A DNA stretch of 64,000 nt from Neelides folsomi (Eukaryota > Arthropoda > Collembola > Neelipleona > Neelidae), in assembly GCA_034687125.1 (NCBI GenBank), contig JAQGBZ010000170.1, positions 62,001 through 126,000 of the forward strand. Reading direction: 5' to 3'. Each line of letters opens with the position of its first letter. The first letter of the stretch is position 1. The translations under genes were made by a program, and so were the position numbers. This document shows positions 57,501-60,500 of this stretch, piece by piece. The notes beneath the pieces are model-generated. The model was not told the origin of the DNA, did no database searches, and saw only the letters and a list, made by a program, of their open reading frames with translations.

Positions 57501-60500
57501 GGTTGGGATGGAATGGTCGGGGAATTAATTCGCCATGTAAGTGAATAAATTCATTTAATTGTCATTAGCACTCTCGAGCTTTCTTTTAGTTGACTTTCCT
57601 CGCTCTTCCAACCATAGCGGAGCACAAACACACGTTAATAAATAAATGTAAACGAAATCCATTAAAAAGAAAAGTGACTATACCAATAGTGCTAATAGTA
57701 GGCAAACCCTATAAAATCCGCTTGATTCTTCCGGGTCATCCCTGTTAGATAACTGCTCAGAATAAGTTAGGGTAAAATAAAAAGAGGTGAAGAAGAGAAA
57801 TGAACATTTTCAGGAGGCTGACATCGCCGTCGCATCGCTCACAATCACAGCTTCAAGAGAAACCGTCATCGACTTTTCAATGCCCTTCATGGAACTTGGT
57901 ATTTCCATTATGATCAAGAAACCTCAGATCGAAATGCCCGGAGCTTTTTCTTTCGTCAAACCAATGCGAGGTTCAGTTTGGACGGCGAGTTTGGGAGCTC
58001 TCATTGCCGTCGCTGGGGTTTTACTTCTCGTCCAACGGCGACCTCATAACAGATCGATGTACACGTTTCGGAATACTCTCTGGTTCTCCATCGCTTCAAT
58101 TTTCCGTCAAGGGACCCCAATTTCCCCACGGTATATTTAATTAATTAATTATTTAATTAATTATTTTCACTATTAAATCCCTTATATCCCATATAAAAAT
58201 ATACGTTATATAAAATATACAATAATATAAAAACCCCAATTTCATCTTGTAATGCCAATAAATGAAGCAATTAGTAAATTATCTATCAAAAATGTAATAA
58301 TTGGTCAGTTTATATTGTTATTAAAAGTTACCCTTGGCTAAGTTAGGTTAAGCTAATTAGGTAAAGTTAATTTAGATTATACTCTATTCCATTTGAGAAG
58401 ATTATTGAGAAATGAATCATGTTACTTGACCGGGCAATCGAATGTCATGTCACCCGGAAATAATTTCTACAGGAAATAAATCGGTTTATTTGAATTTCTA
58501 ATGACTTGTCAAGTAACATGATTCAATTCTCAATAATCTTCTCAAATAAGATAGAGTATAATTAGGTTAAGTTAGGTTAGGATTATTAGATTAAGTTGGG
58601 TTAGGCTAATTAGGCAGATAGGAAAATTTTGTATTTAAAATGGTTGCTCCGTTATGGTTGGACGCAGGGCGTGTGAGAGATTGGATTTTTTGGATGGCTT
58701 GAGATTGAGAGTTTACTAAATATCAATTAATTAAATAAGGTTGAGTTGAGTTATAAAAGGGAACTTTTTAGGAAGCGGATCTTGCCATTGCTTCTCTCAC
58801 AATCACTTCCGAACGTGAACGAGTGATTGATTTCTCCAAGCCGTTCATGTCCCTTGGAATCTCCATTATGTTGTACAAACCGAAGAAACACAATTCCGGA
58901 GTTTTCGGCTTCATGAGCCCGCTTTCATTTGAGACTTGGGGTTGTGTGGTTCTCGCATATGCGGGGGTTTCTTTGATCCTCTACTTGGTTTCACGGCTCA
59001 ATCCGGCTGAATGGGTCATGGAGGGACGTTCCGGAGCTCCGGTCAACCAATTCACAGTTCCAAATGCTCTCTGGTTCTCTTTCGCCGCCCTCGTCCAGCA
59101 AGGGAGCGACATTTCCCCGAGGTTCATTTAGCTAATTGTTAATTAATCCAAAAGCTAAACAATCCATCTACTATTTATATTTAATTAATAATTATTTAAT
59201 AACAAATTTAATTAATTTTGAATGACAAGTAACAGTAACCAAATAACGAGTATGGATCGAATTATTAGAATTGAGCCTTACACATATAATGAAACAGTTA
59301 GAACTTATTTAAATATAACAACCCTTGTTAAAATTATAGAACAATTCCTTGGTAAAATTATAATTAAAAAATTACCATTAATTTAATTAATAGTTAATGA
59401 ATTTTAATAGGTCGCTTGCTGGGCGAATGGTCGGAAGCGTTTGGTGGTTTTTCACTCTGATTCTTATTTCTTCCTACACGGCTAACTTTGCTGCTGTCAG
59501 AACTGTGAACCGAATGGTTCTTCCCATTAAATCAGCCGATGATTTGGCCGAACAAAGGGAAGTCAAATACGGGACTTTGATCGGAGGCTCAACATGGGAA
59601 TTTTTCCGAAGATCGGAAATTTCCGTTTACAAGAATATGTGGGACTTTATGAGTTCGACGGATGGAGTGGCGGTGAGAAGTTACAACGAAGGAATCAAAC
59701 GAGTGAGAGACAAAAAAGGAAAATATGCTTTGCTCGTTGAATCTCCAAAGAACGACTACACAAATCAGAGAAAACCATGCGACACAATGAAAGTTGGACA
59801 GAATTTGGACGCGAAAGGTTTTGGTGTTGCAACTCCGCTTGGTTCTCCTTTAAAGTAATTTAAATTAAATGCTTATTTAATTAGAATCTTAAATTTTAAT
59901 ATAAGAGAATTAAATACCAAAGACATTAAATTAATAACTTTTAATTTAATTACTTTTTTAAAGGCAAAAAATCAATCTGAAAGTGTTGAGAATGAAGGAG
60001 AATGGCGTTTTGAGCAAATTGGAGAAAAAATGGTGGGATGAAAGAAGCGAATGCGATAACAGCAATAAGGTTTGTATTAAATTAACCATTTGCTAAAATT
60101 CATTCCAATACTGGAGACTTTAATTATAATTAATTAAATTAATTAACAGCAAGAAACAACAGCTTCAGATGACGAACTTTCGCTTGGAAGTTTAGCAGGA
60201 ATCTTTTACATACTCATTGTGGGACTTGTCATAGCTATGGGTGTTTCTTTCATTGAATTTTGTTACAACTCGAAAAAAGAAGCTCGAAAATGTCAAGTGA
60301 GTTAAAATCCACAAATACATTGAATTTAAATCCTTGAAAAAAATTAATCCGTTTTTAAATCCATGAAAAAATAAATCCTTATTTAAATCCTTGTATGTAT
60401 ACCTATGTAATTATGTATGAATTTTAATTTTAGATGACATTGGCAGAAGCTATGAAGGCGAAAGCGCGGGTTACAATCGCCGGCCCTGATTCAAACTGTA

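Follow-up and report, generated by a model that had tools for sequence, protein, structure and literature searches.

The window, the whole 64-kb stretch of DNA that was analysed, holds a complete AMPA-type glutamate receptor gene (54510-60514, + strand) of 19 exons separated by GT-AG introns. Two tandem exons, A and B, encode the same pore segment, and the receptor is 884 aa long with exon A and 895 aa long with exon B (Table 1). Exons 1-13 show 37-85% identity per exon to their Folsomia, Allacma and Orchesella orthologues. The best PDB match for exon A was GluA2 (E 1.5e-26), and for exon B the best matches were GluA2, then GluA4 (E 3e-39). The domain scan of the window's receptor covered its two pore exons, and the three-domain architecture (ANF_receptor, Lig_chan-Glu_bd and Lig_chan) was read from the Folsomia orthologue P0004, to which the window protein aligns exon by exon. 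Scored singly against Pfam Lig_chan, exon A reached 20.7 bits (cut-off 30.8) and exon B 51.1 bits. The M3 gate motif, common to both isoforms, reads SYTANFAAV rather than SYTANLAAF, with the core kept and the end changed; SYTANFAAV was also seen in the springtail AMPA-type proteins P0004, P0009, P0011, P0012 and P0065 (Folsomia, Allacma and Orchesella among them). The G+C content of exon A is 49% and that of exon B 51%, against 35-47% in the other exons of the gene.

Table 1. Features of the receptor gene and of the RNA pairing predicted around its pore exons (positions within the window).
Feature	Position	Strand	Description
Exons 1-13, common to both isoforms	54510..57536	+	Signal peptide, amino-terminal domain, first part of ligand-binding domain; unbroken frame, GT-AG borders
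Exon 13	57442-57536	+	Just 5' of the exon pair
Arm 1, in the exon 13-exon A intron	57569..57624 (core 57607-57624)	+	Predicted long-range RNA helix
Exon A, alternative pore exon	57814..58130	+	S1 end, M1 and pore loop; Q/R residue R, +4 residue Pro
MITE-like palindromic repeat, in the A-B intron	58376..58562	.	81-nt arms, 81% complementary
Shared arm, in the A-B intron	58643..58714 (core 58645-58662)	+	Predicted to pair with arm 1 or with the end of exon B
Exon B, canonical pore exon	58772..59121	+	Same segment as exon A; Q at the Q/R site, Asp at +4
Exon B stretch including the Q/R codon	59034..59110	+	Predicted competing helix with 58643-58714
Exon 16 (M3 exon)	59411-59854	+	Just 3' of the exon pair
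Exons 16-19, common to both isoforms	59411..60514	+	M3, S2, M4, C-terminus, stop

Both pore exons are open, are entered in phase 0 and left in phase 2, and have AG/GT borders. Exon A comprises 317 nt (105 codons + CG) and exon B 350 nt (116 codons + AG). The Q/R codon is CGT in exon A (58105-58107) and CAG in exon B (59096-59098), whilst the +4 codon specifies Pro in exon A (58117-58119) and Asp in exon B (59108-59110). The arginine of exon A aligns with the Q/R glutamine of GluA2 chains. Exon A is 11 residues shorter than exon B, the difference lying in the M1-M2 stretch, and 53 of the 103 aligned residues are identical; at such low identity (51%) an assembly duplication was ruled out as the source of the pair. 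When A and B are joined, a TGA is met at the 19th codon past the last complete codon of A, and when both are skipped a TAA is met in the M3 exon, so that only the use of one of the two keeps the frame. A sequence-only reading of this DNA had described two tandem intact exons for one segment with these phases, R in one and Q in the other with Pro in place of Asp at +4, and had argued that only one-of-two inclusion gives a full protein. The anatomy agreed base for base, the codons were located as above with the GluA2 alignment in agreement, and the two stops lie where the argument needs them. A run of 105 codons would by chance lack a stop with a probability of 4e-5 at intron composition, and of 0.012 at that of exon A itself; the conservation of exon A in relatives is far stronger evidence than these figures.

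The closest relative of exon A is the corresponding segment of Folsomia candida P0004 (NCBI name 'isoform X2'), identical at 78 of 99 aligned residues (79%), which shares the R of the Q/R site and the Pro at +4. As the shared exons 13, 16 and 17 are 78%, 76% and 81% identical between the window and P0004, exon A is held as tightly as its neighbours. Judged by this comparison exon A is not decaying, which answers the doubt attached to the earlier reading that one exon of the pair might be, and its conservation in Folsomia rules it out as a pseudo-exon. Exon B is identical to the Allacma orthologue at 92 of 115 residues and to that of Orchesella at 81 of 115. It is exceedingly improbable that exon A is a relic, a duplicated exon that is no longer spliced in this species: neither A nor B has a splice donor of the strongest consensus, but exon A is open, in the right phase and bordered by GT-AG, it matches Folsomia as well as the shared exons do, and the codon differences between A and B are commonest at the third position (43, 31 and 60 of 103 codons at positions 1, 2 and 3).

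Identity of the window protein over its shared part came to 474/728 with Allacma (65.1%), 450/729 with Folsomia (61.7%) and 448/733 with Orchesella (61.1%). A tree of this shared part placed the four springtail sequences together as one gene (100/100); within it the window and Allacma paired (86/89), as did Folsomia and Orchesella (100/100). Since P0004 is the same gene, and since Folsomia and Orchesella split from the window and Allacma, exon A predates that split. The closest proteins by identity, among the matches listed, were those of the springtails Folsomia candida, Allacma fusca and Orchesella dallaii; P0003, P0005, P0006 and P0123 outscored them because each holds the domain twice. The Allacma and Orchesella proteins are of the B type only among the matches listed, and as these were the best 120 matches and 90% clusters that can merge isoforms, the missing A type in these two species is weak evidence. 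The C-terminus of P0004 also differs, so the name 'X2' need not refer to exon A.

Among the 276 proteins listed in a search of relatives, five were recognised as carrying the alternative segment (P0004, P0008, P0162, P0169 and P0263). Two annotated Artemia franciscana records, P0161 (isoform X3) and P0162 (isoform X2), match fully over 70 residues at the start and 255 at the end; the pore segment between is their sole difference, ending MQQGCDISP in X3 and LLKAGSVVLP in X2 (Q versus K). Despite identical flanks, the Artemia records carry different base names (glutamate receptor 1-like and 4-like). In a further Artemia model, P0169, the alternative segment precedes the second half of the canonical one, and in a mayfly model, P0008 (Ephemera danica), a partial alternative segment, which stops before the Q/R site, precedes the canonical segment. 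The exon order is thus alike in the window, Artemia and mayfly, with the alternative first. In P0263, a 390-aa frame on a 1557-base contig, an R-bearing alternative exon (LLRAGNVTVP) runs through M3, S2 and M4 without a break; the contig appears transcript-like, with the alternative exon joined to M3 as it would be in spliced RNA. The exon pair had been presented in the sequence-only reading as a feature of this animal, and in this respect the reading needs correction, as the pair is older and wider, with kin exons in Folsomia, Artemia and mayfly. As such, the exons are already present in public automatic annotation.

The age of the pair was addressed with a tree of 35 rows, 5 alternative and 30 canonical. 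A branch with 99/99 support had the five alternative exons on one side and the 30 canonical rows on the other (100/96 for the alternative exons in the group table of the same tree); the alternative exons form long branches, of which the tree tool warned. Single residues divide the rows in the same way. Ala is found at exon A residue 58 in 5/5 alternative and 0/30 canonical rows (Cys in 29), Ser at exon A residue 95 in 4/4 alternative and 0/30 canonical rows (Ala in 30), and R or K at the Q/R site in 4/4 readable alternative and 0/30 canonical rows (Q in 29). At +4 the four readable alternative exons have P, P, V and V, with no acid. Across the 276 proteins listed, the Q/R site read against exon B was Q in 245, R in 12 and K in 3; two of the 12 R proteins, P0004 and P0263, were recognised as being of the exon A kind.

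Most likely, from these comparisons, the pair arose once, before the split between branchiopods and hexapods. Separate duplications in springtails, Artemia and mayfly, grouped only by their long branches, seem rather unlikely to us. Such duplications would accord with the warning of the tree tool, with the different pore ends of springtails and Artemia, and with an intron in M1, which is missing from both springtail exons and, as the break in P0169 hints, seems present in the Artemia canonical segment. Against them are the shared discrete residues missing from all 30 canonical rows, the matching segment borders in the Artemia proteins together with the same exon order, and the support of the alternative group. 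A second AMPA-type gene in the assembly (contig C110) has a Q pore, one S1-M1 match and one pore match, with an intron in M1. A simple single duplication does not explain an M1 intron that is found in this gene, and seemingly in Artemia, and not in A or B. Exon A was ruled out as a copy from the C110 gene, where no exon pair was found in the 9.9 kb read and whose M1 intron A and B lack.

In vertebrate GluA2, the change from Q to R at the Q/R site is made by ADAR2 editing and abolishes Ca2+ permeability. The site is the best-known single-residue control of Ca2+ entry at excitatory synapses, and is usually taught as a case that needed RNA editing. The springtail gene resembles GluA2 (and GluK1/2) in the pore position, in the choice of Q or R, in being an AMPA-type subunit and in the predicted effect on Ca2+; it differs in that an exon is chosen rather than A-to-I editing carried out, and in that about half of a segment of 105-116 residues changes as well, the acid at +4 included. 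Excerpts of two papers describe the Q/R residue and the acid at +4 as involved in the Ca2+ permeability and polyamine block of AMPA/kainate receptors (PMC6307864, PMC12226733), and excerpts of the latter report that a Lys mutation at the NMDA site reduces Ca2+ entry and that R channels are poor conductors as homomers (PMC12226733). Exon B would give a standard Q pore, predicted to be Ca2+-permeable. Given the roles of the two positions, an R subunit without the acid, such as exon A encodes, should lower Ca2+ entry, conductance and polyamine block in channels co-assembled with Q subunits, or should conduct poorly alone; the Q subunit encoded on contig C110 is a possible partner.

By analogy, the choice between A and B may act as the same binary Ca2+ switch as GluA2 editing. 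It is just as conceivable that the product of exon A forms a pore that conducts poorly or is dominant-negative, as exon A lacks the Asp at +4 and differs from B at about half of the positions. A broader alternative is that the product of exon A does not conduct or serves in trafficking (as a dominant-negative, modulatory or non-ionotropic subunit), and is not a Ca2+-impermeable channel; we give it real weight, though we think it the improbable outcome. The Lig_chan score of exon A, below the cut-off, marks an unusual pore that may not conduct, homomeric R channels conduct poorly in the excerpts available (PMC12226733), and the filter is broadly changed, being RQGTP here, RQSTP in Folsomia, KAGSV in Artemia and RAGNV in P0263 versus QQGCD. 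The rest of the isoform is nevertheless intact, the segment is conserved like the neighbouring shared exons, and the positive charge at the Q/R site in 4/4 readable cases fits a tuning of permeation. An AlphaFold2 model of P0004 with 22 relatives shows helices for M1, M2, M3 and M4 but, at a mean pLDDT of 64 and of 37-61 for residues 701-810 (by blocks of ten), is too weak for conclusions.

An 18-nt inverted repeat, whose halves are the cores of arm 1 and of the shared arm, flanks exon A in the two adjoining introns; as RNA it is fully paired with one G-U pair. Without mismatch the 18-mer occurs at only these two places in the 75.1-Mb assembly, and at four more with 2 mismatches. In an ungapped pairing test of introns, run with the MITE-like repeat cut out, 0/500 shuffles were as good as the core pairing of the flanking introns. 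None of six other intron pairs of the gene was outstanding, their pairing being equalled by 343, 302, 237, 302, 239 and 40 of 500 shuffles, and the A-B intron showed no unusual pairing with the next intron (39/60 shuffles as good). In folds of 1235 nt and 2101 nt the helix grew from the core to 49 pairs (57569-57624 with 58645-58707), and the core pairs had probabilities of 0.98-1.0 apart from the last (0.70). Outward extension of the core helix was only moderately beyond chance (9/300), and its inner side was not beyond chance (71/300).

Unexpectedly, the shared arm was also predicted to pair, and equally well, with the end of exon B, in a helix of 60 pairs (-71.1 kcal/mol) that includes the Q codon; 0/200 shuffles and 0/300 synonymous recodings were as stable. 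When 467 scan windows along the gene were compared, the best ten values (-71.6 to -54.2) fell at the arm 1 site and the exon B end, and the next best beyond these two places was -53.6, at 55158. The lowest of 35 pieces in a composition-matched null taken from elsewhere in the 64 kb was -48.1 kcal/mol, at a G+C of 0.42-0.56 for the pieces versus 0.57 for the exon B end. Folded together, the two arrangements competed in favour of the helix around exon A, with 49 pairs versus 0 of the exon B-end helix; when arm 1 was blocked, 32 pairs of the exon B-end helix formed. No such pairing was found for the 3' end of exon A (101 and 146 of 200 shuffles as good), nor for arm 1 with the end of exon B (84/200).

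Long-range pairing at this locus thus goes beyond chance in these models, and in prediction one arm has two mutually exclusive partners. The pairing may be a splice switch of competing structures, predicted here from one genome. A helix between the flanking introns would loop exon A out and bring the exon 13 donor near the exon B acceptor, and without that helix the same arm could cover the end of exon B. In parts of one review, the choice among mutually exclusive exons in insect Dscam, 14-3-3zeta, Mhc and MRP1 is described as controlled by docking-site/selector RNA, and a competing-structure switch is proposed for such exons in general (PMC6071210). As far as those parts go, the likeness extends to long-range arms, to one arm with two alternative partners and to exons that are looped out; the springtail switch differs in being predicted from a single genome and in having its second partner inside exon B itself.

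As its helix with exon B spans the Q/R codon, the shared arm could also be an editing complementary sequence, at which ADAR would edit the Q codon of exon B to R and so provide two routes to R. With arm 1 blocked, A59097 does pair with U58659, but the free fold favours the helix around exon A and leaves 59097 unpaired, and a genome-coded R exon makes editing of exon B unnecessary; we regard this as very unlikely. The MITE-like repeat in the A-B intron was ruled out as the cause of the inverted repeat around exon A, as the arms lie outside it and the sequences holding them had no other match in the assembly. The repeat itself was found at 40 places at an identity of at least 94%, its own included, among 40 of 118 candidates scored, and is probably incidental.

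We therefore favour an explanation in which one AMPA-type gene would make two subunits by mutually exclusive use of tandem Q/R pore exons of one origin, under possible control by RNA pairing, and we consider this full account likely. Both isoforms would be expressed in this animal, the constraint of the frame would make double inclusion and double skipping non-productive, and the choice of exon may be set by the pairing. The Artemia isoforms and the Folsomia 'isoform X2' support one-or-other exon use by homology. Where the sequence-only reading had proposed a Q/R switch made by splicing, the splicing part holds up on the frame logic, the Folsomia orthologue of exon A and the Q/K isoforms of Artemia, and the part concerning Ca2+ stays a prediction by analogy. 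More tentatively, and with somewhat less than even confidence, we propose that the Q/R splice switch arose once in the branchiopod-hexapod ancestor, and that in this lineage an intronic arm of a bistable pre-mRNA would either loop out the R exon or sequester the pore end of the Q exon.

No description of a splice-coded Q/R choice in glutamate receptors or related channels was found in the open-licence full texts searched by title and abstract start, which agrees with the statement of the earlier reading that no described case was known. Among papers on iGluRs or springtails, the available portions of PMC6307864, PMC12226733, PMC5644144 and PMC5225553 make no mention of one, and those of PMC4370714 gave no term match. 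In NALCN, according to extracts of one study, tandem mutually exclusive exons 15a/15b and 31a/31b swap a selectivity-filter residue, E versus K, and exons 15b are monophyletic in the gene tree (PMC3557258). Going by these extracts, the likeness lies in tandem mutually exclusive exons that change a filter residue (PMC3557258); NALCN belongs to another channel family and its exons span the pore loop and its surroundings, whereas the springtail exons swap the end of the ligand-binding lobe, M1 and the pore loop together. Excerpts of a further paper describe the flip/flop exons of AMPA receptors as mutually exclusive, 115 nt long, lying where S2 ends and altering gating (PMC8257547). They share with A and B the tandem, mutually exclusive arrangement within AMPA receptor genes, and differ, by that description, in that they do not encode the pore loop.

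What appears new here is the predicted intron helix that would loop exon A out, with an arm that competes for the end of exon B. If the proposed switch is real, it would be a second, independent and apparently ancient solution at the Q/R site, reached by splicing; arthropods would have reached through a choice of exons what vertebrates achieve through ADAR2 editing, and a choice of Q or R inside a single subunit gene would repeatedly have been selected for. For arthropod neurobiology it would also bring into view a class of isoform so far overlooked.

Genes with a hard-wired R (P0168, P0170, P0046 and a gene on contig C2) share the genome-coded R with exon A; they differ in carrying it in an otherwise usual pore, whilst here one gene has both forms. 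In the locust (Schistocerca nitens) AMPA-type protein P0046 the pore is canonical except for an R at the Q/R site; the protein is perhaps a hard-wired R paralogue in insects. The gene on contig C2, in the same genome as the window, encodes a kainate-like subunit (L040:4856-5038) with a genome-coded R at the Q/R site (TFLRQGSGLNP), and a kainate-like gene on contig C168 (L036:4669-4815) has an apparent Gly there (CIVGGGADIAP). Across the whole assembly the ligand-gated channel domain was matched 72 times, with many of these matches in long intronless open frames, which suggests a large ionotropic-receptor-like family. Past the receptor gene, at 63650-63735, a short palindromic-looking element (CAGGGTGGGCCATAAG and its reverse complement) was seen by eye.
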